From positions 1-22,229 of the IMG/VR virus record IMGVR_UViG_3300035701_000324: a DNA stretch of 22,229 bases. One strand, written 5' to 3'. Every line of letters begins with the position of its first letter. The first letter of the stretch is position 1. Source of the stretch: a virus. The translations under genes and the position numbers were made by a program. Below the pieces are notes generated by a model. That model did no database searches, was not told the DNA's origin, and was given only the letters and a program-made list of their open reading frames with translations. Positions 5,265 through 22,229 of the stretch are shown in pieces.

Positions 5265-5590
5265 GTGATTTCTACCCCAAAGAAGTTGAAGGTCAAGGTT
5301 GCAAGGGTCGCCCACACGCGGATTTTGTCCGTCGTGGCGAGGGTCACTCCCAAATGGTAACAATGCGTGCAGTTTCCCATGATCGGCACGTCGTAGAACA
5401 GATAGTGCTTGGGGTCATCTGCGGCCCCGGCAACAGCGACGGTGACTCGGTACGACGTGGCAACGGCGCTGCGGTTTGCGATGGTGAGGGTATTCACCAT
5501 CACGGTCGTCGAAGCGGCGACGGTGTACGCGTCGGTGAGGGATGACGCGCCAGGGTTTGTTTGCGCCAGAACCTTGAGAGTGTCAGCCAT
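5261..5590 (-). CDS. Small beta-rich phage structural protein (109 aa)
   Basis: The gene overlaps the end of the fibre gene by 8 bases and the next gene by 4. The protein is an all-beta sequence of alternating hydrophobic and polar stretches (TTVMVNTLTIANRSAVATSYRVTVAVAGAADDPKHYLFYDVPI in pieces), with short Gly/Asn/Asp turns and a C-terminal FFGVEIT. From general knowledge, small proteins of this pattern (YTV, then NRS, then YLFYDVPI and a GVxLATTDxIRVxA stretch) recur beside tail fibre genes in tailed phages and are usually annotated as hypothetical or structural. A fibre-associated or surface protein is likely; the exact role is not known. Confidence 0.8.
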   Translation of the reverse strand: MADTLKVLAQTNPGASSLTDAYTVAASTTVMVNTLTIANRSAVATSYRVTVAVAGAADDPKHYLFYDVPIMGNCTHCYHLGVTLATTDKIRVWATLATLTFNFFGVEIT

Positions 5591-6497
5591 GATAGCCCAG
5601 TCCTGCGGCGAGCAACACGCGCTTCCAGAGTGGCGTGGCGGTGCCGATGATGTTGGCGGTCACGTTGCCTTTGAAGTACGCCGATCCGTCGCCTTTCACG
5701 TAGTAAATCTGCGTTCCAAGATCGTACGTGTAGCCATTGATGGCGTACTCGGTGACTGAACTGCCAGCGACGATGCGGATCCCTTGGCCTGTTGCGGTGG
5801 TGTTTCTGAATTGGGCAGCATAGAACGAACTGGAGTCGCACAGCACGTGTAGAAGAAAGCCTCCCACGTCGTAAAGGTAAATGGTCCCGGATGATCCGAC
5901 AGTCACGCGTACCCGATTGGTATGCAGCCAATCGCCAGAGATCGTTTCGGTGTCGGCGTTGCGCGCGAGCAACGATCCATTGGGGATGTTGGTTTCCTGG
6001 ATGTTGGTGAGTGAAGTTCCGTCAACGCCCCACGAAACGTCCGTGCCGTCGCTCCGAAGAAAGCGCCCTGCAAGTCCGATGGCGAGTCGGCTCCATTTCG
6101 GAGTGGCGTTGCCTACGATCACGTCGCCGCGCACGACTGTCCCGGTGAGCGTGTCGGTGTGAACGGTCGATTGCAAGAGGTTGTGGAGTAGCTGGCCCCA
6201 GTACGGGGCGGCTCCTGGTCCGCCGGAGATGAGTGCGTATCCTATCGGGCCGATGGGTAAGCGTGAGAGGGTCGTGATGTTGCTGGCGTACAGCAGATCG
6301 CCAATGCCGAATCCCGAGAGTCCTGTCCCTCCGTGTTCGGTCTGGAGAATGCCGTTTGTGTACCAGGTCGAGGTATCTGCCCCATGTAGATCCGCGAACA
6401 GTCGGTCGAAGTTCGCGTTGATGTTTTCGACTTGTTGCGCGTTGGTCGGAAATTGGATGTCGTAGGTTTTGGACCGTGCGCGCTTCTGGGGAGACAT
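5583..6497 (-). CDS. Tail fibre protein with GGTG-type repeats (304 aa)
   Basis: I place the start at ATG 6495-6497 (MSPQKRARSK), 2 bases after the upstream stop; the frame is open further upstream only inside that gene. Residues 12-45 form a helix-prone N-terminus (NAQQVENINANFDRLFADL) that may dock to the tail. Residues 56-100 carry the recurrent phage fibre motif GGTGLSG, then GDLLYAS, LSRLPIG, G-ALIS and W. A second copy lies at about 123-157 (GDVIVGN, WSRLAIGLAGRFLRSDG, W), and a degenerate third (GTATPLWKRVLLAAGLG) is at the C-terminus. Residues 195-280 are beta-rich. Such repeats are well known in tail fibre and tail tip proteins. Receptor binding or a fibre stalk is the likely job. 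No intramolecular chaperone domain is visible. Confidence 0.85.
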   Translation of the reverse strand: MSPQKRARSKTYDIQFPTNAQQVENINANFDRLFADLHGADTSTWYTNGILQTEHGGTGLSGFGIGDLLYASNITTLSRLPIGPIGYALISGGPGAAPYWGQLLHNLLQSTVHTDTLTGTVVRGDVIVGNATPKWSRLAIGLAGRFLRSDGTDVSWGVDGTSLTNIQETNIPNGSLLARNADTETISGDWLHTNRVRVTVGSSGTIYLYDVGGFLLHVLCDSSSFYAAQFRNTTATGQGIRIVAGSSVTEYAINGYTYDLGTQIYYVKGDGSAYFKGNVTANIIGTATPLWKRVLLAAGLGYHG

Positions 6498-6499
6498 CG

Positions 6500-8089
6500 C
6501 TAGTCTCGTCCGATGGTATGAAACGGGATCTCGCATCCGAAGAGGCGGAGCTTCTGATTGTTGTCGGCGTTGTAGAAATTGAGCTTCACAAATCTTCCGA
6601 TGCCGAGAATACGCGCGCGCTTTCGGCCCGTCGTCAGATCCATGCTGATTGTTGCTTGGGCGGTCGCGCCCAACTCTCCGACGTACGGGGTAATCACAAG
6701 TGTTCCAGCGACTTCCACGCGCGCGCGGATGGCGAGTTCTCCGAAGAACTTGAGGTCGTCGGGCGCGTCCATGTGGAGATGTGCCAGATCCACGTCAAAG
6801 ACGATGGCGCTTCCGCTATCGGTGCCTACCGTCTGGTTCATCTGGTACACCTGCCCATCCGTACCACAGATGATCGGGACGAGTTGATCGTTGGTGTCCT
6901 CGATGGCGTAGGCGACATTCGGAGTGAATGCGGCGGTCGCGTGTGGTCCCATCCAGGTTTTGCGTGTGGTCGAATAGGACAGCCAGCGATTGATGACGGT
7001 TCCGCCTGCTGCGGGGAGAAAGATGTCGTAGGTATCGAGCAGCGGATTCCATCCGGCGAAGGCATCCTCGAACTTGGCACGATTGAACGTCTCGTCGGTG
7101 GTGAACCACGGGTGAACGCGCTCTCGGGTAATGGAGATCACGCCATCTGGACCCCACGTGTAGACGCCATCTTCTCCAAGGAAGTACGCCACGTCTCGAA
7201 TGACCACGACGGTATCCTGTGACACACAGCCGATGTTCTCTGCGAACTTGATCAACGTCCAGTTGTCGGGGTTGCTGCCGACAAGTTTCCAGCACACGTC
7301 ACGCTTGAGCAGGCCGAGTTCGTCTCGTCTCGCGGCAAACGCCGTAACGCCTTTCTCGTCCTGGTTCAGCGGTGGCACGTCGAAGAAATTACCAGCGGCG
7401 TACTGATAGAAGTTCCCATCCTCGCTGTAGATCACGCGGTCTACCAGTTCCGTGCCCCGAAGAAAGACGCGGTTCTTCCAAGTCGTGATCAATTCGCACG
7501 CTTCGCCGGGCATGGTGCCGGGTGGATTGATGAGATTTAGCGGTGCCCCGAGCAGAATGAGTGCCGCGTCGGAGAGGTCGTCTGCCGAGATTGTTTCGAG
7601 ATTGTTGTCAATGTCGAACCACGGGTAGTACACCGTTCCAGGCCCGGTGGTTGTCCGCCAGAGTCGTCGTCCCGTGATTGTTTCGTCGCTCTTGGGGATG
7701 CCTCGGCAGCGAAGCCATTGGCTCGACAGCGCGACAGACGCTTCGGACTCGGGGCCGAGCGGAGATTCATTGATGATGGTGCCTTCCGCGTCGGCCAGAT
7801 AGAACGACACGCGTACCTTGAAAATACCGCTCAAGGTACCGCCTGCGGTGCCGTCCAGGATCGGTGCGAACGCGGGCGGGCGTATGGTCTGAGTGCGGAC
7901 AGTCAGATTTTCGTCAATCCACAAGCTGCGGGTTGGCGAGTTCACCATGATGACGTTCTTGGCAATCGCTGCGAATCTGGCCCGTTGAGCGCGTAGTGTG
8001 ACGGTCGTTGGGATCGTGACGTTCGTGTACACGCCCGCTGATGTGGCCTTGTAGAGTTGCTGAGCGCCTTGAAGTAGGTAGTAGGACAT
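6500..8089 (-). CDS. Large beta-propeller-like tail protein, nozzle-type (529 aa)
   Basis: The start is ATG at 8087-8089 (MSYYLLQGAQQLYK), 2 bases after the previous stop; the open frame continues upstream only as a shadow inside the neighbour. The protein is almost entirely beta, with repeated aromatic/Gly blades: NRVFLRG, VIYSEDGNFYQYAAGNFFDVPPL, DEKGVTAFAARRDELGLLKRD, DVAYFLGEDGVYTWGPDGV. The middle has RRLWRTTTGPGTVYYPWFDI, a pattern I associate with tail proteins of podovirus-like phages. The C-terminal 120 residues form a separate beta region. The size and the position between a neck adaptor and a fibre fit a nozzle or tail tube-like component, comparable in role to the T7 gp12 nozzle. 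That equivalence is inference from fold type and order, not from recognisable identity. Confidence 0.82.
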   Translation of the reverse strand: MSYYLLQGAQQLYKATSAGVYTNVTIPTTVTLRAQRARFAAIAKNVIMVNSPTRSLWIDENLTVRTQTIRPPAFAPILDGTAGGTLSGIFKVRVSFYLADAEGTIINESPLGPESEASVALSSQWLRCRGIPKSDETITGRRLWRTTTGPGTVYYPWFDIDNNLETISADDLSDAALILLGAPLNLINPPGTMPGEACELITTWKNRVFLRGTELVDRVIYSEDGNFYQYAAGNFFDVPPLNQDEKGVTAFAARRDELGLLKRDVCWKLVGSNPDNWTLIKFAENIGCVSQDTVVVIRDVAYFLGEDGVYTWGPDGVISITRERVHPWFTTDETFNRAKFEDAFAGWNPLLDTYDIFLPAAGGTVINRWLSYSTTRKTWMGPHATAAFTPNVAYAIEDTNDQLVPIICGTDGQVYQMNQTVGTDSGSAIVFDVDLAHLHMDAPDDLKFFGELAIRARVEVAGTLVITPYVGELGATAQATISMDLTTGRKRARILGIGRFVKLNFYNADNNQKLRLFGCEIPFHTIGRD

Positions 8090-8091
8090 TG

Positions 8092-9474
8092 CTATGCCAA
8101 GGTCGTGATAACCGCGCCGTAGCCCGTGAATCCTGCGGCGGCTGATTTGACCACGCTCCAGGTTCCCGGAGATGCGCCAGGAACACGCTTGAGAATCTGG
8201 CCGGATGTGGTGGGTTCGGTGCCGGTGAGGATGATGTACAGATTGCCCTTGAACGTGTGAATGCCGCCGATGCGAGAGTCGTCGAGATGATAGCCGGTGA
8301 GCGCGAACAAGTTGGCGTCTGTGATGTCGTCTGCGAACGTGATGCCATCTGTTGAGGCCCGAATCAGAAGTTGACTCGGAACGAGATTGGCAAGACCTCG
8401 GAAATAGAAGATTTTGTTGTCGAAGAAAAACGGCTTCGAGGTGCCGCCTGAGCCTGCGTGAACGTAGGTATCGCGTGCGGTCCAGACACCATCGCTCGTC
8501 CGTTGGTAGATGCACTTCGGCGTCGTACCGGCGTCGAAGTGTAGTGTCGCCCACAGATAACCCAAGCACGACAAGAGGCCAGTCCCGTAAGTTGATGCGA
8601 ACTCAGCGTCCTTTACCCACGCTCCATCCACTCCTGGTCTGATTCGGTACACGCCGCTGGTGCTGCCTCCGGCGTAGTTATTCGTGATTGCCCATAGACG
8701 ACTGTTCCACGGGGCGAGCGCGAAGGGTGCGCCACGGTTGCTTTCCGGCGCGACGGCGAATGCGCTGCCCGCGAACGGATTGCCAATGCGAATCATCTGT
8801 CCGTCAAAGGGATTCATGCTCCAGACGGTTCCGCGTCGGGTGGCGGTGTCGTCGAATGAGCAGAAGTAGTAGAGTCCCTGGAACTTGATAATGCCTTGGA
8901 CACATTCCACGTTGGTTTCGGTCAGTCCGGCGGCAATCTGGATCTGCTGGTTGAACGGCACTTTCCCGTGCAGGTAGTCATCGGTGCCGTTGAACTGTCG
9001 AAGGGGTGGGGCGGAATGTCCAGCAACGGCGTAGATGATGTAGTCGTTGGACGGATAGAGCATCCGATTCCGGATGGCTGCTCCGCGCGCTGCGAGAAAC
9101 ACGTTGCGATATGCGCCGTTGCGGCGTTGGGCCTGAAAGCTCGCGGCGGGCACGCTGCTGTTCGTCCAGTTGGTTCCGTCCGTGGTGTACGTCCAGGTTG
9201 CGCCTGCGGTCGTGGTGTTTTCGTAGCCTACCCATAGCCGTTCTGTCTGGATGAGGTTCACGGCAACATTAGCGATTCCCCAGATCGCGCCGAGTGCGAC
9301 GGGGGAGCCGAGTGGCGTGAGTCCGCCCCGCTTTTCGATTGCGCCTTCACCTTCGTTCGGCAGCATCACGGCGTTCTGCGCTTTTGTCAGCGTGCCGAAC
9401 TTGCGATGGACAGCGGACGCCGACACGTCCACGCCGATTTCTGCCAGATTGTAGATGTTGAGCTTCTTCCCCAT
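8092..9474 (-). CDS. Beta-propeller-like tail protein, nozzle-type (460 aa)
   Basis: The ATG lies 4 bases after the adaptor gene stop with only a weak Shine-Dalgarno, suggesting coupled translation. The N-terminus reads NIYNLAEIGVDVS, then LTKAQNAVMLPNEGEGAIEKRGGLTPLG. This 'list of objects, then RGGL' pattern recurs in phage tail proteins of this type. The remainder has repeated blades with Trp, Tyr and Gly (LWVGYENTTTAG, WTYTTDGTNWT, LYYFCSFDDTATRRGTVWSM, LWAITNNYAGGSTSGVYRI, LYIILTG), consistent with a beta-propeller. It sits directly after the putative adaptor and before a second, larger propeller-like gene. A tail nozzle or tube role is inferred. No enzyme motif is visible. Confidence 0.82.
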   Translation of the reverse strand: MGKKLNIYNLAEIGVDVSASAVHRKFGTLTKAQNAVMLPNEGEGAIEKRGGLTPLGSPVALGAIWGIANVAVNLIQTERLWVGYENTTTAGATWTYTTDGTNWTNSSVPAASFQAQRRNGAYRNVFLAARGAAIRNRMLYPSNDYIIYAVAGHSAPPLRQFNGTDDYLHGKVPFNQQIQIAAGLTETNVECVQGIIKFQGLYYFCSFDDTATRRGTVWSMNPFDGQMIRIGNPFAGSAFAVAPESNRGAPFALAPWNSRLWAITNNYAGGSTSGVYRIRPGVDGAWVKDAEFASTYGTGLLSCLGYLWATLHFDAGTTPKCIYQRTSDGVWTARDTYVHAGSGGTSKPFFFDNKIFYFRGLANLVPSQLLIRASTDGITFADDITDANLFALTGYHLDDSRIGGIHTFKGNLYIILTGTEPTTSGQILKRVPGASPGTWSVVKSAAAGFTGYGAVITTLA

Positions 9475-9478
9475 ACGA

Positions 9479-10180
9479 CTACCAATACGGCTCGAAAAGC
9501 GCTTCGGTCAGTTCTTCATCTTGTGTCTGTCGGGGAGTCGCGGCGGTGAGGATGTGCGACTTCTCGGTGCCGTAGATGCTGATCCATTCCGCGTCCGGGG
9601 TCTGTGATTCTTTGCGTTTGGCAAGTGCGTAGGCGACGGTCCAGGCGACGAGGGCTTCATCCGACTCGAACGGGATCGGGTTGGCGGTTCCGAGCGCGAC
9701 AGTTGCCAGCGTCGGTACGTAGACGAGGCGGAGTAGCAGCGTCGAAGAGAGTGGCGGAGACACGTAGATGGTCGGCGCGGACACTGGAGCGCCCGCCCCG
9801 GCGATGGAGAAGTAGATCGTTCCGCCCTGATAGGGGTCTGATGCGGCACGCGAGCGCGCGGCCTGAAATACCGGGTCCATATAGTTGCGGTACTGGAACC
9901 GGATGTTGCCGAAGGTTGTGAGATCGCGTGGCTCGATGCCGCGTACCGTCGCTACGTCCGCCGGGATACCGGAAAGCGTTGACGCGCCAGCGACCATTGA
10001 GACGTTTGTGATGTCGTTCGTGAGAAAGAAGTCCTGGTAGTTGTCGTTCAGCGCGCGCCACAGATCCTTGATCCCGAGATTCATGTGATCGCCCAGTTCG
10101 GCATCGCTCCAGAACGAGGCAGTTGGCTCATTCAGATGCCGTCGAACGATGGTCACAAGCGCCGAAAGCAGCGTTGACAT
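9479..10180 (-). CDS. Neck/head-tail adaptor protein (233 aa)
   Basis: The start ATG is preceded by AGGGG and lies 9 bases after the upstream stop. The N-terminus, MSTLLSALVTIVRRHLNEP followed by FWSDAELGDHMNLGIKDLWRAL, is the hallmark of phage adaptor/connector proteins that bind the portal: a helix, then W-[ST]-D-x-E-L, then an N-x-[AG]-x-x-[DE]-L helix. Residues 55-165 are beta-rich. Residues about 170-210 are helical again (FESDEALVAWTVAYALAKR). Length and order fit the adaptor that links portal and nozzle in short-tailed phages such as SU10-like podoviruses. The gene is separated from the capsid gene by nine other genes, which is an unusually long gap. The assignment rests on the N-terminal pattern and context. 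Confidence 0.75.
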   Translation of the reverse strand: MSTLLSALVTIVRRHLNEPTASFWSDAELGDHMNLGIKDLWRALNDNYQDFFLTNDITNVSMVAGASTLSGIPADVATVRGIEPRDLTTFGNIRFQYRNYMDPVFQAARSRAASDPYQGGTIYFSIAGAGAPVSAPTIYVSPPLSSTLLLRLVYVPTLATVALGTANPIPFESDEALVAWTVAYALAKRKESQTPDAEWISIYGTEKSHILTAATPRQTQDEELTEALFEPYW

Positions 10181-10189
10181 TTGCAGCCC

Positions 10190-11089
10190 CTATGGAGTGA
10201 GCGTCCAGCGAATCGTGAGATGGTAGAGTGAGCCTGTGCCTCCAAGGGTGTCCTGTCCATCGGTGTTGAGGCGATAGATGCGAAACACGACCGACTCTCC
10301 CGCCGCGCAGTTGGTCATGGGGATTGCGGTAAAGTCCACCCGGATGGGTTTATCGGTCGTCGCGGTCGAAGCTGAGACTTGCGGTTCATAGCTGTTGAAA
10401 GTCTGCGATGCTTCACCGCTGGCGGTGCAGGCGGAGGCGAGCCACCACTTGATATTCTTCCCGGCGTCGGCAACCGCTGATCCCCACCAGAGCGTTCCGG
10501 TTACGGCTACGGCGCTGTTCCAATTCGCCGGGAGATAGTGTGGGGCGGTTTGGATGGCTCGCTCTGCGTCTGTGAAGTCGATGCGGCCGTACGACGCCTT
10601 CGTTGCCGCGTTGAGGCAGGATCCAGTCGGGTTGGTGTAACTCGGTTCGTAGCTGTAATTGTTGAGAAAAGCGGTTGTAGAACTGGCACACGATACCGGG
10701 TACTCGATGTCCTGGGTTTTGACGCCTGCATTGGCAACCGCCCACTTCATGCCGTAGGTGGAAACGGCGTCGGCGGTCAACACCCATCCATCGGTTCCGA
10801 TGGCGATCTTATTGAGGGTGTTCGTCCCTCCTGCGAGAACGTCGCCCTTCGCGTAGGTGGACTGGCCTGTGCCTCCCGAAGTGGCCGGGACGGTGCCGCC
10901 GCCGCCGCCGCCGCCCGCGCCCACGGTCACACTTAGCGCGCCCGTGCTGTTGCCCTGAAGCGCAATCGGCCCGCCGTTGTACGTGGCGAAGATGCGACTG
11001 ATCTGCTGCGTGACGACGGGTTGCTGGAGCAGCATGACGAACATGGCTCCGAGTAGAACGCCGATGCTGATGACGAGCCATTTTCGCAT
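10190..11089 (-). CDS. Membrane-anchored or exported fibre-like protein (299 aa)
   Basis: The ATG is preceded by AAAGGAC. Residues 1-3 are basic and residues 4-22 are hydrophobic (LVISIGVLLGAMFVMLL), a signal-anchor or uncleaved signal. Residues 23-54 (QQPVVTQQISRIF, ALQG) are nearly the same as in the next gene upstream. Seven glycines (59-65) form a hinge. Residues 71-116 carry the phage fibre repeat (SGGTGQSTYAKGDVLAGG, LNKIAIG, G-VLTA, W). Residues about 125-299 form a beta-sandwich-like region (WNSAVAVTGTLWWGSA, NIKWWLA, GESVVFRIYRLNTDG) of a type I associate with phage receptor-binding proteins. A short-tailed phage fibre with an export segment is odd. It could be a surface-displayed adhesin, or the hydrophobic segment could be a virion docking element. 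Confidence 0.85.
   Translation of the reverse strand: MRKWLVISIGVLLGAMFVMLLQQPVVTQQISRIFATYNGGPIALQGNSTGALSVTVGAGGGGGGGTVPATSGGTGQSTYAKGDVLAGGTNTLNKIAIGTDGWVLTADAVSTYGMKWAVANAGVKTQDIEYPVSCASSTTAFLNNYSYEPSYTNPTGSCLNAATKASYGRIDFTDAERAIQTAPHYLPANWNSAVAVTGTLWWGSAVADAGKNIKWWLASACTASGEASQTFNSYEPQVSASTATTDKPIRVDFTAIPMTNCAAGESVVFRIYRLNTDGQDTLGGTGSLYHLTIRWTLTP
10895..10915 (-). repeat. Seven tandem GGC codons (poly-Gly hinge)
   Basis: Seven identical in-frame triplets encode seven glycines between the conserved leader and the fibre repeat of the 299-aa protein. Unit changes would alter hinge length without breaking the frame. Confidence 0.9.
10931..11089 (-). repeat. Duplicated leader segment, copy 2
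   Basis: These 159 bases encode residues 1-53 of the 299-aa protein and align without gaps to 12122-12280. Positions 10998-11017 are identical to 12189-12208 over 20 bases. Counting by eye, about 37 of the first 54 residues are identical. Confidence 0.85.
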
Positions 11090-11119
11090 ACCGATGTCCT
11101 TTGCAAAACCGTCGTTTGG

Positions 11120-12280
11120 CTACTCGATCTCGAAAGTGCATGTGAAGGAGACGTCCGTGGTGTTCGTTGCTGCTGCCCATGCTGTAGATGTGTTCGCGGT
11201 CACGCGAAGGCTGATGAGCGCAGATGCGGCGGCAGTAAAGGCGGTGCCGATCTGCCGCGTGCCGTTGTCATTCGACTCGTAGGCGCATTTCTGGCCTGCC
11301 TTGGCCTTATAGCCGCCCGGAATCTTGACGAGCAGCAAAGTTGCCGGGGTGCCTCCTACCGATGATGTGATCACGTTCAACGCGAGTACCATCGTCTTGC
11401 CCATGATGGTGTAGGCGAAGTGGTCGAGGTCGCCCGCATCGACGGTCCACGTCATCGATCCACTACCCGTGAAGTCTCCTGCGGTGTGACTCACGGTGGT
11501 CCACGCGCCAGGAGTGTCCAGATAGCCAGCTTGGGCGTGGTCGCCCCATCCGTAGGCTTGATTCCAGTTGCCAGCGTCGGGGCCGGTGATGGTCGCGCCT
11601 ACTGGTACCATCAATTCCTGTCGAACAATCAGCCTTCCGGCTTCAGCTTGTCCCCCCATGAAAAACACGCCGTTGGGAAAATCGTAGAACATGGAATAAG
11701 CCGCCCCAACGGTCGGAGGGGGGTCGCCCGCATAGAAAGAATCGACGATGTTGGGTGCAGCCATGCCGGTTGAAAGCCCGATAGAAGCGATTATGGCGAA
11801 CGAATCCCAGTAGTAGCCTGTTTGTTCCCACGGCCCGCCTGCCGATGAACTAGCGTAAATGCCTGTGCCGTACTGTCCAGGTGCGCGTTGCCATTCGAGC
11901 GATGCGTGTCCATCTTGAGGGCAATCGACAACGGACACCATCTCTGATGCCGCCGACTGTCGATAGCTCTGGTCAAGTGCGACGACACGAAAGTACTTTG
12001 TGACACGTACGCCTGACACGCCTCCCACACAATCAACGGTGACATAAAGCGGGGCGGGAATCAGGTGTGTCTCAAAGAGCGTGTTGAAAATCCCGTAGGG
12101 TGAAGTACCCGAGAATGCAATCTTCAACGCGCCTGCGCTGTCGCCTTGGAGTGCGATGGCGTTGCCGTTGTACGTGCCGAAAATGCGGCTGATCTGCTGC
12201 GTGACGACAGGCTGCTGCATCAGCGCGATGAATGCTGCGCCGAAAAGAATCCCGATGGTAGTGACAGCCCATTTCTTCAT
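11120..12280 (-). CDS. Membrane-anchored or exported fibre-like protein (386 aa)
   Basis: The start ATG overlaps the upstream stop (ATGA). Residues 1-3 are MKK and residues 4-21 are hydrophobic (WAVTTIGILFGAAFIALM), followed by QQPVVTQQISRIFGTYNG, the leader shared with the downstream 299-aa gene. Residues about 78-150 resemble a fibronectin-III-like unit (KYFRVVALDQSYRQSAASE, then SLEWQRAPG and GIYASSSAGGPW). Residues 238-254 read NWNQAYGWGDHAQAGYL, a motif widely found in tail fibre proteins. Residues about 260-386 form a beta C-terminal domain of the fibre type (MTWTVDAGD, GKTMVLALNV, SVGGTPATLLLVKIPGGY, NDNGT). The fibre identity is well supported. The N-terminal hydrophobic segment is directly visible, but whether it exports, anchors or docks the protein is not known. 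Confidence 0.87.
   Translation of the reverse strand: MKKWAVTTIGILFGAAFIALMQQPVVTQQISRIFGTYNGNAIALQGDSAGALKIAFSGTSPYGIFNTLFETHLIPAPLYVTVDCVGGVSGVRVTKYFRVVALDQSYRQSAASEMVSVVDCPQDGHASLEWQRAPGQYGTGIYASSSAGGPWEQTGYYWDSFAIIASIGLSTGMAAPNIVDSFYAGDPPPTVGAAYSMFYDFPNGVFFMGGQAEAGRLIVRQELMVPVGATITGPDAGNWNQAYGWGDHAQAGYLDTPGAWTTVSHTAGDFTGSGSMTWTVDAGDLDHFAYTIMGKTMVLALNVITSSVGGTPATLLLVKIPGGYKAKAGQKCAYESNDNGTRQIGTAFTAAASALISLRVTANTSTAWAAATNTTDVSFTCTFEIE
12122..12280 (-). repeat. Duplicated leader segment, copy 1
   Basis: This 159-base segment encodes residues 1-53 of the 386-aa protein. It aligns without gaps to the start of the 299-aa gene at 10931-11089, with a 20-base exact core at 12189-12208. Confidence 0.85.
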
Positions 12281-12822
12281 TTCACACCTTCGGATCGACT
12301 ACCGTGCGTCTGTCGAAGAAAATGCACGTCGAACGCCGCGAGAAACACGTCGCCCGTGTAGTCCGTTGCGGCGTTGGTGACGCGCTTGACGGTTCCGAGC
12401 AGCAACGAACTGATTTTCATGCCGGTGCCGACGATATCTGTGGTTTCCACCATGCGGAGCTTGCCGATCCCATCTTCGGCTTGTGTACACGTGAGAACCG
12501 TGGGCGTCGTGCTGCTCATGACGCCGCCTTCCCAGTTTACCCATTGGTACGTCAGTTGCCATTTCACGACGTTGGCGGAGACGGTTGATCCGAACCAATG
12601 AAAGTGCGGAGAGAGCGGCGAGCCTTCTTGGTAGCCGTGCGGCATCTGAATTGCGAAACAGGCAAAGTCGTTCAGAACGAACTTGAGCAGATATACGCCT
12701 GAAGTCGCGTACTGCGTCAGCGCCGGGATGTTGGCTCCCGTCGCTCTGAGGGCAAGCGACATTTGTTGCGAATCGTCCCATTCGCCATGTACGAGAATTG
12801 GCCCCGGACTTTCAATCGGCAT
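12277..12822 (-). CDS. Phage structural protein with IQMPHGYQEG motif (181 aa)
   Basis: The start ATG follows TGAGGACGCG, in which the upstream stop overlaps the Shine-Dalgarno. The gene overlaps the following gene by 4 bases. The protein is beta-rich, with the distinctive run CFAIQMPHGYQEGSPLSPHFHW at about residues 55-76 and then WQLTYQWVNWEGG. From memory, the Q-x-P-H-x-Y-x-E-G and P-H-x-H-W pattern recurs in tailed phage structural regions, in proteins usually called hypothetical or virion proteins. The histidines could bind metal, but no enzyme is implied. No signal peptide is present, in contrast to both flanking genes. A surface or fibre-associated virion protein is the most likely role. 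Confidence 0.8.
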   Translation of the reverse strand: MPIESPGPILVHGEWDDSQQMSLALRATGANIPALTQYATSGVYLLKFVLNDFACFAIQMPHGYQEGSPLSPHFHWFGSTVSANVVKWQLTYQWVNWEGGVMSSTTPTVLTCTQAEDGIGKLRMVETTDIVGTGMKISSLLLGTVKRVTNAATDYTGDVFLAAFDVHFLRQTHGSRSEGVK

Positions 12823-12829
12823 CGCGTCC

Positions 12830-13237
12830 TCAGAACACGATGATCGCGTTCCCGCTCGAATCCGCTGCCCACGGGACGGGGGTGCCGCCTGTGAAGTTGG
12901 CGGTAATCGTTCCGGTGGCGGGGGTCGCCGGGCTTCCGGTCACGGTGTACGTGAACGTGTCTGCGCCCGTTCGGGTGATCGTAAACGTGCCGTTGTATTC
13001 AGTCTGATCTGCTGCGGCAATCGTCACCCGATCTCCGGTGACTAGCCCGTGTGCGGTGTACGTGGCTGTCGCTACCTGAGCGACACGGGCAATGGTGACG
13101 CCTGAGAGGGCAACCGCCTTGCGTTGTACGAACAGGCGATTCCAGCCTGTTGATTGATTCTGCTGCGCGAACAGGGGCGCACAGAGCGCCCCTGCGATGC
13201 AGCCGATCAAGAGTCCGACGAGGAACCGTTCGCGCAT
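12830..13237 (-). CDS. Exported small protein with FCCH-like beta domain (135 aa)
   Basis: I chose ATG 13235-13237 (MRERFLVGLL), which follows TGAGGAAGTC and gives an N-terminal signal. The longer upstream frame would bury this signal and overlap the previous gene. Residues 1-24 have a basic start, a hydrophobic core and a small-residue end (LCAPLFA), consistent with a signal peptide; cleavage after Ala24 is possible. Residues about 53-115 (TATYTAHGLVTGDRVTIAAA, TEYNGTFTITRTGADTFTYTV) match the short beta domain often called FCCH-like in phage tail and surface proteins. Residues 33-47 (NRLFVQRKAVALSG) echo the RIF, ALQG linker of the two fibre-like genes downstream. It is probably exported or virion-surface; the function is unknown. 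Confidence 0.8.
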   Translation of the reverse strand: MRERFLVGLLIGCIAGALCAPLFAQQNQSTGWNRLFVQRKAVALSGVTIARVAQVATATYTAHGLVTGDRVTIAAADQTEYNGTFTITRTGADTFTYTVTGSPATPATGTITANFTGGTPVPWAADSSGNAIIVF

Positions 13238-13244
13238 GACTTCC

Positions 13245-13661
13245 TCACAGGTCCGTGATGGCGATTGCCGCGTGGCCTTCCGCGATGCGCGCGTAGGCTT
13301 TGATGCTGATGTCGCCTGCCAGTCCTGCCCCGGACACAACGGCATCCAGGTTCTTGCCTTCCGTGAGCGGAACGCCCTCATCCCCAAAGTTGAACGTCAG
13401 GGGACCGACGCCGGGTGACGACGGAACGAGGGCAATGATTTTCGGTGAGGCAGCGGTATCTTGGAAGGTGATCGTCTGTGCGGCATTCACCCGCACGTTG
13501 ACGATGATCCGCTGAATGTAGACCGTGTACTTCGCGCCCACGTTGGTCACGATGGGTGCGAGTCCGGTCCATGCAATTCCGAACTCCAGGTCTGCCGATA
13601 CCTCGCGGTGCAAGTACCGATGATAGTGTTCGGAGTCGGCCTGTGCCCTCCAGCTTGGCAT
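13245..13661 (-). CDS. Small beta-rich phage structural protein (138 aa)
   Basis: The start is ATG 13659-13661, with AAGGAG seven bases upstream; the longer open frame beyond it is a shadow of the 211-aa gene. The N-terminal 25 residues are polar and aromatic (HYHRYLHREVSADLEFG). The rest alternates as beta strands (KYTVYIQRIIVNVRVNAA, TITFQDTAASPKIIALV, LTFNFGDEGVPLTEGKNLDAVVSG, SIKAYARIAEG). This looks like a compact beta-sandwich, as found in capsid decoration or minor surface proteins. There is no membrane segment. It lies between another beta-rich structural gene and the exported 135-aa gene. The precise role is unknown. Confidence 0.78.
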   Translation of the reverse strand: MPSWRAQADSEHYHRYLHREVSADLEFGIAWTGLAPIVTNVGAKYTVYIQRIIVNVRVNAAQTITFQDTAASPKIIALVPSSPGVGPLTFNFGDEGVPLTEGKNLDAVVSGAGLAGDISIKAYARIAEGHAAIAITDL

Positions 13662-15926: not shown

Positions 15927-17234
15927 TTAGAAGTCGCGGACTACAACGAGCGTCTGTCCGGTGATTCCGTCCAGGCGCGCGCACTTGCCGGGGTAGCGCG
16001 CGTGGTACTGCTTCCGCATCCGGTACCACGCCTCGAACGAGTCGCGGGCGGTCGAGCCGACGCCGACGCGGATGATGATCCGGCCGTCCTCGTCAACCCA
16101 CTTGCCCTTCTCCGACCCGTACTCCACCATGCCCGCGCCCGCCGTGTCGAGCAGGAACATGGATGTGAGTGGGTGCGTGCGGATCGCCTTGATCGGCACT
16201 TCACCCATTGTCAGATCGCCCTGCTTCATGGCGGCGGTGCCACCATCGGGCTTCATGAGGTCCGCGCCGCTGTAGCGCCGGTCGGCCTCGGTCATCTTGA
16301 TGTAGAGACGACGAACGCTGTGGTGCGCCGTCATCAGGTTGATCTGCGCGCCGAGCTTCTGGTCCAGCACGTCCGCAACCTGCTGGAACAGGTCCAGGGA
16401 CAGCGCGCCCGTGGACGCCTTCACGTAGGACTGGTACTGCTGCCAGAGGCTCCGGTCCACGTTGAAGTAGTTGTTGCGGTACGTGCCGTCGTCGAACAGG
16501 GCCATCAAGCCCCAGAAGCCATGCTCGAACGACGTGTCGAGAACGTCGGTCACGCTGGGGTTCGCCGCCTGCACGATGTAGTCGTTGTCCGTCGTCGAGA
16601 AGGCCGAGTCCAGCACGATCTGTGTGCCGTCCGCTGTGCAGGAAATCACTTTGCGGATGCTGGACGACCGCAACGCGCCCGATGCCGGGTTGACGAAGCC
16701 GACGTACATGCCCGGCGACACGAAGCGGTTGCCGAAGTCGGCTCCCGCGATGCCGCCCGGCGCGTCGAGGGTCTGAGTTGCGGAGTTCACCGCGCCGTTG
16801 ACGAGGGCCAGCACGCCGCGCCCGTCGCTGGACAGGGCGTACTCCTGTTTCCGGGCGATGTCATCGACGAGGCGCGTCATTTCGTCCTTCTTCGTGGCGA
16901 CGAACGCACCTTCCGACTTCATCGAATCCGAGATGCTCTCGCTCGTCATCCGGACGCGCGCCATCAGCTTCTTCTGGCCGATGTGAACCTTGATGTGCCC
17001 CTGCACGCCCGCGTCCGCGAACGCGCCATCCTCGCCCACGAACATCGGGGACGTGTTGCGCGTCACGTGCGCGTCGTAGACGACTTCCTGCCCCGCGTAC
17101 TCCACGGGGGTCCACTTGAACAGACCCTTCAACGGGAACTTGTTGTTGACCTGATCGGCAACGTAGTCCTCGAAAACGGTCTTGAGTGCGCCCTGGATAA
17201 GCTGAGTGTCAGCCCCACCTGGATAGGCTCCCAT
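15927..17234 (-). CDS. Major capsid protein, HK97-fold type (435 aa)
   Basis: The ATG follows TAGGAGAGAGAGACA, a strong Shine-Dalgarno fused to the scaffold stop. The sequence has capsid features: an N-arm (ADTQLIQGALKTVFEDYVADQVNNKFPLKGLFKWTP), the early beta stretch EVVYDAHVTRNTSPMFVGEDGAF, IKVHIGQKKLMARVRMTSESISDSM (the helix-strand area typical of HK97-fold coat proteins), a long mixed middle and a C-terminal domain with EVPIKAIRTHPLTSMFLLDT and FEAWYRMRKQYHARYPGKCARLDGI. The length is usual for the family. It lies directly after the putative scaffold gene and is followed by two hairpins, as expected for the most expressed gene. I rely on order and overall pattern; the fold is not proven from sequence alone. 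Confidence 0.85.
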   Translation of the reverse strand: MGAYPGGADTQLIQGALKTVFEDYVADQVNNKFPLKGLFKWTPVEYAGQEVVYDAHVTRNTSPMFVGEDGAFADAGVQGHIKVHIGQKKLMARVRMTSESISDSMKSEGAFVATKKDEMTRLVDDIARKQEYALSSDGRGVLALVNGAVNSATQTLDAPGGIAGADFGNRFVSPGMYVGFVNPASGALRSSSIRKVISCTADGTQIVLDSAFSTTDNDYIVQAANPSVTDVLDTSFEHGFWGLMALFDDGTYRNNYFNVDRSLWQQYQSYVKASTGALSLDLFQQVADVLDQKLGAQINLMTAHHSVRRLYIKMTEADRRYSGADLMKPDGGTAAMKQGDLTMGEVPIKAIRTHPLTSMFLLDTAGAGMVEYGSEKGKWVDEDGRIIIRVGVGSTARDSFEAWYRMRKQYHARYPGKCARLDGITGQTLVVVRDF

Positions 17235-18277: not shown

Positions 18278-20698
18278 TCAGGCCGGAGGCACGCCTTCTT
18301 GACCTTGCGCCTGTTCCCGCGACACATCCGCGAGATTGCCTGATTCTCGATTGGAGTTGACCATCGCTTGTCCGACGCCCGGCGCTCCGCCCTGCATTGG
18401 CGGCGGTGCGCTGAACTTGGGCATCCCCATTGCGGAGGTCATCGCTCCCATTTCGTGTTCGGCCATGTGCATCGTGAAAAGCTGCTCGATTTCCGGCCGC
18501 GCGGTGAAGATTTCGCGTGCGCCGTCCGTGAGTGCCCACTTTCGATGCTCGCTCATGTGGATCACGTCGCTCTGCCACGGTTTGCGGAGCATTGGTGACG
18601 GCGTGACAGGTACGGGCGGTCCCTGAACGAGTGCGCCCGGCTGCATGAGTGGCGCGCCCATCGGATCCACCTGTCCGGTCGGAATCGACGGTCCTGGAAC
18701 CGGCGGGCCGGGCACAAACTGTGAATCGGCGCTCAGTACCCATCGCTCGAACGCATCTTGCTCTTGAAGCGCGGATTTTACGTCGGCGTCGAGTGACGGG
18801 AGTAACTCTTGCTGCCCGAAGGTCCGCAAAATCGAGTACGACTGGTCGGGATCCTGGGGATTGAGGATGCCGAGTTGCTGAAGCTGCTGAATCGCCGCCC
18901 GTTTGCCGAGATTCGTTTTCGGGGCTTGCGATCCGTCCTCGATGATGATCTGGACAGACCCCATCAGGTCTGATTTCTGGAACTCTTGTCCCTGCCACGT
19001 CCCGTTCGGGCCAACCACCGAGAAAAAGCGCGTTTCCGGGCCGAAGGACCGCTCCAATTCCAGGGCGACCTGATACCACGCGCGGTATGCCTCGCCCCGC
19101 TCGCTGAGAACCATCCCGAATCGACTCTGCGACCGCTCGACGAGCAGTTGCATCGCGGAGAAGGCTTCCACGCCCGCCGGTTTCGCGCCTTTCAGCACGT
19201 CATTCGTGCCCGACAGCGAAGTGATGTCGTCAAGGATCTGCACGCGGAGGTTGTTGAGGCTCGCGGGGACGTTCGATCCTTCGATGCGCTCCGGTTTCGC
19301 GTTCCCGGCGGCGATCAACGGGTTGTACTTCACGACGAGGCCGGGTTCGCCCGTGAACTTCTTGACTTCCGCGCCTTTCGGTTCCAGCCAGATCGGATTC
19401 GAGGATCGCTGCACGATGAGTTGAACGAGCGAATCGAGTTGATTGAGATGGTCGTTCTTTTGGATGATCGGATCCAGAGGCGATCTGCCCCACACGCGCC
19501 CGCCGACGCGCTCGTACGGTTCGTGAATCCAGGGCCAGATGGCATCGCCTTGTGGCGTGGTGTATGGCAGCGGTCCTGGAAGGCTCTGGCCCTCGTCCTG
19601 AACGATCACGGGCTTCGTGTCGCCTAACACGCGGATGAACAGCCCGCCGGGGTACTCGCGGTTGGGCTTCATCCACAATTCGTACTCGGTAATGCCTTCG
19701 CCCTGCTCAATGCCGGATCCGGCCATCAGCGCGAGCGGGTTGCTCGATACGTCGCTCTGCGTGGCGAGTGATCGGAGCAGTTGAATGCTGCGTTCGTTCG
19801 TCGATTTGTCGAACGTCAGCTTCTTCGCCAGTTCCGGGTAGACCTTCTCCACCCATCGTTTCGTCCGCCAGCGCAAGCGGAACACGTAGGGCACTTCCTT
19901 GAAGTCGGTGTAGCCCGGCGAGAAGGCAATCTCCCACGGGCTGCACACGTCGGTCTTGCCCTTGCCGCTCGCAATCGACGACACGCTCTGCTGGTCCGCT
20001 CTTGGCGGAATAACCATCTCGCATTGGGCGCACGTTCCGCCCTGCATTTCTGACGGCGCGTTGTTGTACCCGCAGAAGGGACAGGTTGTGAACACCGCGC
20101 ACACGGGCGCATCTTCCGCGAACTTGTCCCACCACGGATGCAGGAACACGTTGCCGGTAGCGATCAACCAGAAATCCGCCTGTCGCATGATGCGCGACAT
20201 TTCGTGTTCGGCACGAATCGCCGGTTCCATCTTGTCTGCGATCTCGCTCGCGCTGATGTCCTTCGGCTGGTTTCCGGTCGGGCGCGCTTTGGCGACGAGA
20301 TCAACGGCCTCGAAGAGACTGAGGATGGTCTGATGGACTTCCGCGATCTTGTTGGTCACGGGACGCGGGATCCACTTTGCCAGCCGCTTGTCTACCCATT
20401 GGCCGCGTGACGTGTCGTAGTAAATCCAATGGCGTCCGAGCAGGTAGAGCAGGTTCCTCCACCACGAACGCTCCCAGACCCATCGGTTGTCGAGTGCCTC
20501 GCTCTTGCACTCCTCGAAGGTCTTGAGCAGCGCCTTGTCGTCGCCGTAGGGGTCCGCCTTGATTTTCTCGGGGTCGATGGAGCCGGTCTTGAACAGTTGC
20601 AGGAGCTTCGCGGTGATCTCAGGCTGCGGCGGGCCAACCTCGGGAGGCGGCATCATCGGGGGCTGAATGGCGTCTCCGAGAAGTCCGGGTGGCAGCAT
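18278..20698 (-). CDS. Portal protein with zinc-ribbon-like insert (806 aa)
   Basis: TAGGAGACGCC precedes the ATG, with the TAG being the upstream stop. The N-terminal 70 residues are Pro-rich and then helical. Residues about 73-130 (WVWERSWWRNLLYLLGRHWIYYD, KWIPRPVTNKIAEVHQTILSLF) match the start of P22-like portal proteins. At 206-209 and 223-226 lie CPFC and CAQC, a four-cysteine zinc-ribbon pattern inserted in the middle. Residues about 390-560 (VWGRSPLDPIIQKNDHLNQLDSLVQLIVQRSSNPIW, SLSGTNDVLKGAKPAGVEAFSAMQLLVERSQSR) fit the portal stem/wing helices. The C-terminal part is Pro-rich, with His pairs in IHMSEHRKW and FTMHMAEHEMG. The portal forms the DNA entry ring and binds the terminase. 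It is long for the class but within the range of podovirus portals. Confidence 0.85.
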   Translation of the reverse strand: MLPPGLLGDAIQPPMMPPPEVGPPQPEITAKLLQLFKTGSIDPEKIKADPYGDDKALLKTFEECKSEALDNRWVWERSWWRNLLYLLGRHWIYYDTSRGQWVDKRLAKWIPRPVTNKIAEVHQTILSLFEAVDLVAKARPTGNQPKDISASEIADKMEPAIRAEHEMSRIMRQADFWLIATGNVFLHPWWDKFAEDAPVCAVFTTCPFCGYNNAPSEMQGGTCAQCEMVIPPRADQQSVSSIASGKGKTDVCSPWEIAFSPGYTDFKEVPYVFRLRWRTKRWVEKVYPELAKKLTFDKSTNERSIQLLRSLATQSDVSSNPLALMAGSGIEQGEGITEYELWMKPNREYPGGLFIRVLGDTKPVIVQDEGQSLPGPLPYTTPQGDAIWPWIHEPYERVGGRVWGRSPLDPIIQKNDHLNQLDSLVQLIVQRSSNPIWLEPKGAEVKKFTGEPGLVVKYNPLIAAGNAKPERIEGSNVPASLNNLRVQILDDITSLSGTNDVLKGAKPAGVEAFSAMQLLVERSQSRFGMVLSERGEAYRAWYQVALELERSFGPETRFFSVVGPNGTWQGQEFQKSDLMGSVQIIIEDGSQAPKTNLGKRAAIQQLQQLGILNPQDPDQSYSILRTFGQQELLPSLDADVKSALQEQDAFERWVLSADSQFVPGPPVPGPSIPTGQVDPMGAPLMQPGALVQGPPVPVTPSPMLRKPWQSDVIHMSEHRKWALTDGAREIFTARPEIEQLFTMHMAEHEMGAMTSAMGMPKFSAPPPMQGGAPGVGQAMVNSNRESGNLADVSREQAQGQEGVPPA

Positions 20699-21112: not shown

Positions 21113-22229
21113 CTACCTCCAGAAGTCGCCTACCGGATTCTCGCCCTCGGGCAATTCCGAGAGGAAGTCTACGCCGATTTCCTCGTTTTCACCAACTCCC
21201 GTCTCGCACGCCCGGAGCCGCTCCACGCTCCAGCGGATATCCTCCGGTAAGGTGGACAAGTCCCGCCGCCCGCGATCTGTGTCCTCCGCGCCTGCGGTAT
21301 CGTCGCGTGGCGCGAAGGGCCACAGCATGAGCGCGTACCGGAGCGCATCGCACAGATCGTCCTGGATCTTGATGACGCGCTCGCGGCGCATCTGTCCATC
21401 GGACCCGACGTTCTCGTCCCATCGGTAGCCGCGCATCTGCTCGATGAGCTTGGGGCAGGTGTCCTCCGGCAACCACAGCCGCCGGGAGCGGAGCCACGAT
21501 CCGACGCGCGTGATCCCGGCGACCACATCATTCGGCGCGGGCGCCGCCATGATGCCGTGCTGGTGCAGTTCGATGATCGTCTGCCGCTGCGAGCGGTCGC
21601 ACGCCCATTGTTCGGGCTGGAGCGATCCGACCATGAGGTTGAGCGCGAGCGCATGATCCGCGACGGGCTTGTGCCGCTGCACGTACTCGCCCGTGCAGAC
21701 AAGCCCCGCATCCGTTTCGACGAGAATCAGCGCGCCGAAGGGATGGTCCGCGCCGGGGTCGATGCCGACGATGGACGGCAACCAGCCGGGCACCTTCGGC
21801 CACGTCGGAATGAGCGTCTGAAGTTGGCCGCGCGGCACAATGCTCGCGTCAATGAGCGGGCCGTACACCGCGCCCGCGAACGACACGAAATCCGCCTCGA
21901 ACTCCTGCTGGTAGAACAGCGGATCGAGTTGCCGCTTCGCCGCCAGCACTTCCGCCGCGTCGATGAAGGGATTGTCGAGCGTCCGATACTTGCACGCCCA
22001 GAAGCCGGGGTCCATCTCGTACGCCGGGAGATAGAACCGCTTGTACGTCCAGTCGAAGCCGTTGGGGGAAGTCGTGACCCACGCCGCGCCCCGCTTATCG
22101 ACGAGCGCCGGAAGGAGCGTGTCCCACGCCTTCTCCTGCACCTTGCGCGCTTCGTCGATCCACGCCCAATCGAGGCCGGGGCCACGGGCGCGCTCCGGAT
22201 CGTCGAGGGACCGGAACTGCACGCGCGCG
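21113..22229 (-). CDS. terL: Terminase large subunit, C-terminal part (partial)
   Basis: The frame remains open to the right edge, so the N-terminal Walker A part is outside. Counting from the GTG at 22220-22222, Walker B and the catalytic Glu are visible (LDWAWIDEA, residues 17-25) and motif III is TTSPNG (50-55). The nuclease domain shows its acidic residues in IVGIDPG (Asp155), WACDRS (Asp209) and QDDLCDALRY (Asp288-292). The protein is the packaging motor ATPase and headful or site-specific nuclease. It is the first gene of the module here. No small subunit is seen. The first visible residues are not the real start. Confidence 0.93.
   Translation of the reverse strand, partial: ARVQFRSLDDPERARGPGLDWAWIDEARKVQEKAWDTLLPALVDKRGAAWVTTSPNGFDWTYKRFYLPAYEMDPGFWACKYRTLDNPFIDAAEVLAAKRQLDPLFYQQEFEADFVSFAGAVYGPLIDASIVPRGQLQTLIPTWPKVPGWLPSIVGIDPGADHPFGALILVETDAGLVCTGEYVQRHKPVADHALALNLMVGSLQPEQWACDRSQRQTIIELHQHGIMAAPAPNDVVAGITRVGSWLRSRRLWLPEDTCPKLIEQMRGYRWDENVGSDGQMRRERVIKIQDDLCDALRYALMLWPFAPRDDTAGAEDTDRGRRDLSTLPEDIRWSVERLRACETGVGENEEIGVDFLSELPEGENPVGDFWR

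Follow-up and report, generated by a model that had tools for sequence, protein, structure and literature searches.

Two neighbouring genes of an uncultured short-tailed phage encode fibre-type proteins that share a homologous N-terminal leader with a hydrophobic helix and differ in their tips, and both genes belong to a cassette that is optional among related phages. We analyzed the whole 22,229-base stretch of an IMG/VR record (the window), which is probably a fragment and carries all its structural genes on the minus strand. The reading that we prefer, tentatively and as one that comes close to being probable, is that the two proteins, LB and LC, are sent into the envelope of the host, where they would be anchored by the Sec pathway with their tips outward, be made late and block receptors or sugars. 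The genes that matter for the argument are the following; the open reading frames of LB and LC lie where the original prediction had placed them.

21113-22222, minus strand: terminase, a structural gene
18278-20698, minus strand: portal, a structural gene
15927-17234, minus strand: major head protein, a structural gene; several small genes come after it, before LA
13245-13661, minus strand: g13245, one boundary of the slot
12830-13237, minus strand: LA, 135 residues, third leader protein; MRERFLVGLLIGCIAGALCAPLFA followed by QQ, then a FCCH/endosialidase-barrel-like domain
12277-12822, minus strand: g12277, 181 residues, a leaderless protein encoded in the optional cassette with LA, LB and LC; the gene's stop overlaps the start of LB
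11120-12280, minus strand: LB, 386 residues, whole gene
10190-11089, minus strand: LC, 299 residues, whole gene
9479-10180, minus strand: phrog_399 adaptor gene, the fixed boundary of the slot
5583-6494, minus strand: g5583, an ordinary leaderless tail fibre of the phage, with a GGTG shaft

After the small genes, the order is LA, g12277, LB, LC, the phrog_399 adaptor, two more structural proteins and g5583. As LA, g12277, LB and LC lie within the structural operon, their late expression is probable. The nearest annotated phages match the capsid protein of the window at less than 36% identity, and a search for the host with this protein across GTDB genomes gave no match. The portal has a zinc-ribbon-like cluster, CPFC...CAQC, at its residues 200-226 (gene at 18278-20698, minus strand).

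LB and LC have in common, as had been predicted, a basic N-end, a hydrophobic helix of about 17 residues and the linker QQPVVTQQISRIF. The shared part spans 56 residues, where 54 had been claimed.

12218-12280, minus strand: LB leader, residues 1-21 (MKKWAVTTIGILFGAAFIALM), made up of the basic N-end and the hydrophobic helix, from sequence, hydrophobicity and model
12113-12217, minus strand: LB conserved linker, residues 22-56 (QQPVVTQQISRIFGTYNGNAIALQGDSAGALKIAF), with short strands predicted
11027-11089, minus strand: LC leader, residues 1-21 (MRKWLVISIGVLLGAMFVMLL), from sequence, hydrophobicity and model
10919-11026, minus strand: LC conserved linker, residues 22-57, from the alignment

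Judging from their alignment, the two leaders are clearly homologous: they are 66% identical over 56 residues (E 6e-21), and the local alignment has a z of 37 relative to shuffles preserving the hydrophobic bias. Their codons comprise 24 identical ones, 13 synonymous differences and 19 non-synonymous ones, with a dN of 0.25 against a dS of 1.08, which indicates that the protein sequence of the leader is under selection. The ATG of LB overlaps the stop of the preceding gene (ATGA), as does the start of LC in L004, the nearest phage with the cassette, and AAAGGA, a good Shine-Dalgarno sequence, precedes the LC start in the window. Hence, the translation starts of both genes are credible.

On an additive Hessa scale, a simple hydrophobicity scale, the hydrophobic segments score as membrane-inserting (-1.0 kcal/mol for LB, -3.0 for LC and -3.0 for LC of L004); within residues 1-60, the minima of ten leaderless proteins of the window are all at least +4.3. 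Of the window proteins tested, LA, LB and LC alone have an N-end segment of this kind, and such a stretch is rare by composition (0 to 55 of 20,000 shuffles). AlphaFold2 modelled the N-terminal helix in both proteins, at residues 3-21 of LB (pLDDT 85-88) and 2-21 of LC (about 70), and the structure prediction proposed as a check thus agreed with the expected segment. K or R stands ahead of the hydrophobic segment, the roughly ten residues behind it are free of charge, LB and LC contain no canonical AxA site, and neither has a lipobox, there being no cysteine in the first 60 residues. By simple scales, a basic N-end, a helix of 15-20 residues, few charges behind it and no cleavage motif are what a type II Sec signal anchor displays, and at the level of sequence the leader of LB and LC has these properties. 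In the envelope reading, this N-terminus would be an uncleaved signal anchor with its N-end inside and C-end outside, the conserved linker would serve as the fibre's foot, and the C-terminal tip, which is the exchangeable part, would face the periplasm or the cell surface.

The main rival, which we regard as rather unlikely, is that LB and LC are virion fibres whose N-terminal helix never crosses a membrane and is a docking or packing segment, a GxxxG helix bundle seating the fibre oligomer at the neck by the adaptor or on the capsid. It draws on the GxxxG (G10, G14) conserved in five of five leaders, on the position of both genes between the capsid genes and the phrog_399 adaptor, and on shaft and tip modules that are common to virion fibres; the Sec-signal hallmarks of the leader (a basic N-end and a helix that is uncharged, as are the residues immediately following it) argue against it. 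A lysis-related or other envelope role, for instance that of a SAR-like anchored protein freed on membrane depolarisation, appears very unlikely. The anchors contain Gly and Ala and are moderately hydrophobic, as in SAR endolysins (PMC6116005), but Pfam and PHROG profiles detected no cell-wall hydrolase domain in LB or LC, and the tips are of fibre type.

Behind the leaders, the two proteins are organized differently.

11591-12112, minus strand: LB residues 57-230, the middle region, rich in beta structure, without a family match and modelled at low confidence
11519-11569, minus strand: LB NWNQAYGWGDHAQAGYL fibre motif, residues 238-254, with phrog_9729 tail fiber and cyanophage tail-fibre matches
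11123-11509, minus strand: LB C-terminal tip domain, residues 258-386, a confident beta fold
10736-10918, minus strand: LC residues 58-118, a glycine run with the GGTG shaft unit
10193-10717, minus strand: LC C-terminal tip, residues 125-299, with four cysteines, as in the L004 homologue

The expectation of differing tips, both of fibre type, was borne out: residues 229-278 of LB match the phrog_9729 tail fiber family (E 7e-4) and its tip occurs on the fibres of other phages, while the LC shaft is of the g5583 type (E 2e-4 between the two shafts). One clear GGTG shaft unit is present in LC, where a GGTG repeat had been announced. The LB tip was modelled with pLDDT mostly above 85; the LC model is poor (mean pLDDT 47). 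Foldseek matches of the models in the PDB are weak, the best (E 0.02) being reovirus sigma1, with lactococcal phage RBP heads also found, and the viral structure matches are fibre- or collagen-like proteins, which we take as agreement with a fibre-type nature only. No Pfam match to the YadA-type C-terminal anchor of trimeric autotransporter adhesins was found in either protein.

By sequence, the LB tip is present in 20 loci from about 15 phages, several of the carriers having collagen-like or fibre-like shafts and none having the leader or a hydrophobic N-end. In a sister phage (L013), it forms the end of an ordinary tail fibre, the counterpart of g5583. The tips do swap, since that of LB also sits on leaderless fibres, this tail fibre included. 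As the LB tip and the LC shaft both recur on such fibres, binding modules of the same kinds serve in both leader-bearing and leaderless proteins. That the same tip does without a hydrophobic N-end in about 15 phages is a further argument against a docking segment of the virion.

The four cysteines of the LC tip recur in L004, where identity is 33%, and two of the four occupy invariant columns; all four are retained at 33-43% identity, as would be expected of a disulfide-bonded exported domain. The enrichment is modest (8 of 643 residues, or 1.2%, against 0.54% in other proteins), and cysteines also occur in some leaderless tips. The two cysteines of the LB tip are at most a candidate disulfide pair. 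We dropped even cysteine numbers as proof of disulfides because background proteins with cysteines mostly have even numbers too. The LC tip resembles by eye a fibre tip of contig L045, and the comparison gave no support for homology. The cysteine content fits an oxidising compartment, and would thus also suit extracellular maturation, in which LB and LC would first go to the periplasm or membrane and become part of the virion no earlier than lysis. We hold this to be quite improbable: the literature searched offered no precedent, and as LB and LC are without a cleavage site, their release would need proteolysis or membrane disruption.

Two neighbouring leader proteins had been described, and LB and LC are these; a third, LA, lies nearby and had been missed. 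LA has its own signal-like N-end, which ends in APLFA followed by QQ, is kept in L004 and looks cleavable. Its LIGC at residues 10-13 falls in the middle of the hydrophobic segment, making a lipobox doubtful. Comparison of the LA leader with those of LB and LC, to see whether it is one more copy, gave no significant similarity (z 1.4-2.0). The FCCH/endosialidase-barrel-like domain of LA (residues 44-114) is very common in phage structural proteins, and one of this type is inserted in the phrog_399 adaptors of contigs L030, L046 and L047 (phrog_9998 match).

LA, g12277 and LC are present in L004 and L003, two closely matching contigs, one of 48 kb (64, 46 and 42% identical, respectively), and LB is absent from them. 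The leaders of LB and LC in the window are closer to each other (66%) than those of LC in the window and L004 (55%), and LB therefore seems to have come later, as a copy of the LC leader joined to a different tip. In the envelope reading, LB would have originated when a tip of the virion-fibre kind was placed on this copy, and LA would be a companion with a cleavable signal. All four cassette genes are absent from the sister phage (L005/L013; 87% identity in the capsid protein), where the g13245 homologue is followed directly by the adaptor. In about 13 further phages with this adaptor, the slot holds other proteins, none with this leader and none with a comparable hydrophobic N-end, except for an internal segment in L136. 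Hence, the cassette is optional and the slot variable. Searches with the leader among viral contigs, GTDB genomes and isolate phages recovered it only in this phage and L003/L004. The original prediction of a reusable export or docking module with swappable tips is thus partly upheld, by the export- or anchor-type N-terminus, by two unrelated tips on one leader within the window and by the LB tip on leaderless fibres, and is weakened by the rarity of the leader itself, its reusability being seen in two tips, besides independent signal-peptide-like proteins of other phages.

Signal-like N-ends of other kinds occur in environmental phages. We scanned 672 distinct ORFs of at least 200 residues in the fetched loci, plus gene lists; as resemblance to LA, the adaptor and the LB tip was the criterion for collecting these loci, frequencies among them are not a random estimate. 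L030, L045, L046, L047, L136 and L146 are contigs, not isolates, with ORFs called by length and signals from hydrophobicity alone, so that the cases below are leads. Signal-peptide-like N-ends were found in L046 (at 4381, 6984, 7354, 8224 and 8587), L030 (4341, 7154 and 8043), L045 (9188 and 9610) and L047 (667). Fibre or small beta proteins with such N-ends form runs at L046:4381-10023 (five proteins), L030:4341-9044, L045:9188-11091 and L047:667-1629. A small signal-peptide-like protein (AQPGPPRTYTCxWTHDPAGG) also lies upstream of the terminase in two relatives (L012:1139-1540 and L014:6-356).

SU10-type adaptors are encoded by L030, L046 and L047 (PF24175 above its cut-off; phrog_399), and in these and L136, whose adaptors are related, a gene with a signal-peptide-like segment is found upstream of the adaptor gene. 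Its position in L030 and L046 is that of the cassette in the window, with the capsid gene on one side and the adaptor gene on the other. The leaders at this slot in L030 and L046 look cleavable by sequence, which a docking helix would not need. The slot protein of L136 (3131-5710) has 859 residues, about 125 of them preceding RWKKALGITALVGTLLLLAASAFA, followed by QT and a long beta-rich part; it is possibly a type II membrane fibre.

The adaptor of L146 (5848-6945, plus strand) itself starts with a hydrophobic leader. It matches PF24175 at 44.9 bits (cut-off 27) over residues 45-157, with an hhalign value of 97%, and ATG, GTG and TTG are all absent between the hydrophobic stretch and the adaptor domain. 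The next gene (6942-11456, plus strand) encodes a 1504-residue protein with Laminin_G_3 domains and a textbook signal peptide, MRKIFLIAFLFIFASVCFA followed by QELPQ; both starts overlap the preceding stop (ATGA). Homology of the 1504-residue protein to g8092 found no support. An SU10-type adaptor is normally a core virion part, and as that of L146 bears a comparable leader, leaders may accompany virion parts, in line with virion docking. Signal-like N-ends on structural-operon proteins of several phages, adaptor and fibre types included, would likewise suit maturation at lysis, but export would leave an adaptor across the membrane from the place where heads are assembled. It is doubtful that environmental short-tailed phages of the phrog_399/SU10-adaptor type routinely bear Sec-type signals on structural-operon proteins (fibres, small beta proteins and one adaptor), such that maturation of part of the virion or its partners takes place beyond the cytoplasm and a common leader precedes interchangeable binding tips. 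Two further points weigh against the envelope reading: an inner-membrane anchor alone puts no tip outside a diderm cell, and the cassette genes stand among head-tail genes.

If the envelope reading is true, the virus particle may not be the sole site of receptor-binding tips: phages may also put them into the envelope of the cell that they infect, and fibre tips behind an export leader, exchanged with those of virion fibres, would allow them to display or stock receptor binders there. Superinfection control or late decoration of virions could be achieved by this simple route, which is open to testing, and further cases could be sought computationally by their signals.

The usual view is that phage fibres assemble in the cytoplasm. 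In the literature searched, largely open access, no signal peptides on tailed-phage fibres are described, nor is the pattern of signal-like proteins upstream of the adaptor (L030, L046, L047, L136 and the L146 adaptor). The prophage proteins PblA and PblB, of phage tail type, have been reported to act as adhesins for the host bacterium; they are not known to have a signal sequence, in which they differ from LB and LC. Surface proteins diversified by bacterial DGRs, such as a Legionella lipoprotein, have a variable binding domain behind an export signal, an arrangement like that of LB and LC in proteins that are bacterial. Phage DGR proteins are reported without transmembrane regions or signal peptides (PMC6199706), which makes the combination of fibre tip and export leader unusual. 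An N-terminal signal anchor or signal peptide is used by phages in SAR and signal-peptide endolysins such as P1 Lyz and fOg44 Lys44 (PMC6116005); these share the N-terminal signal with LB and LC but are enzymes of lysis and have no fibre character. Tail fibres of the ordinary podovirus kind (g5583 and the phrog_9729 type) have the shaft unit and tip domains in common with LB and LC and lack the hydrophobic leader. In the weakest step of the envelope reading, the tips would bind, on the infected cell, either the phage receptor or a surface sugar, and progeny and competitors would be barred from adsorbing to the cell or its debris, much as with Llp of T5 and FhuA. The Llp of T5 and BF23 is a phage-encoded exported lipoprotein, with its gene near the receptor-binding gene, that binds the receptor of the infected cell (PMC4728585). 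LB and LC are likewise phage-encoded, lie near genes of receptor-binding type and are predicted to be exported; unlike Llp, which is a small lipoprotein and not a fibre, they have no lipobox and carry shaft and tip modules.
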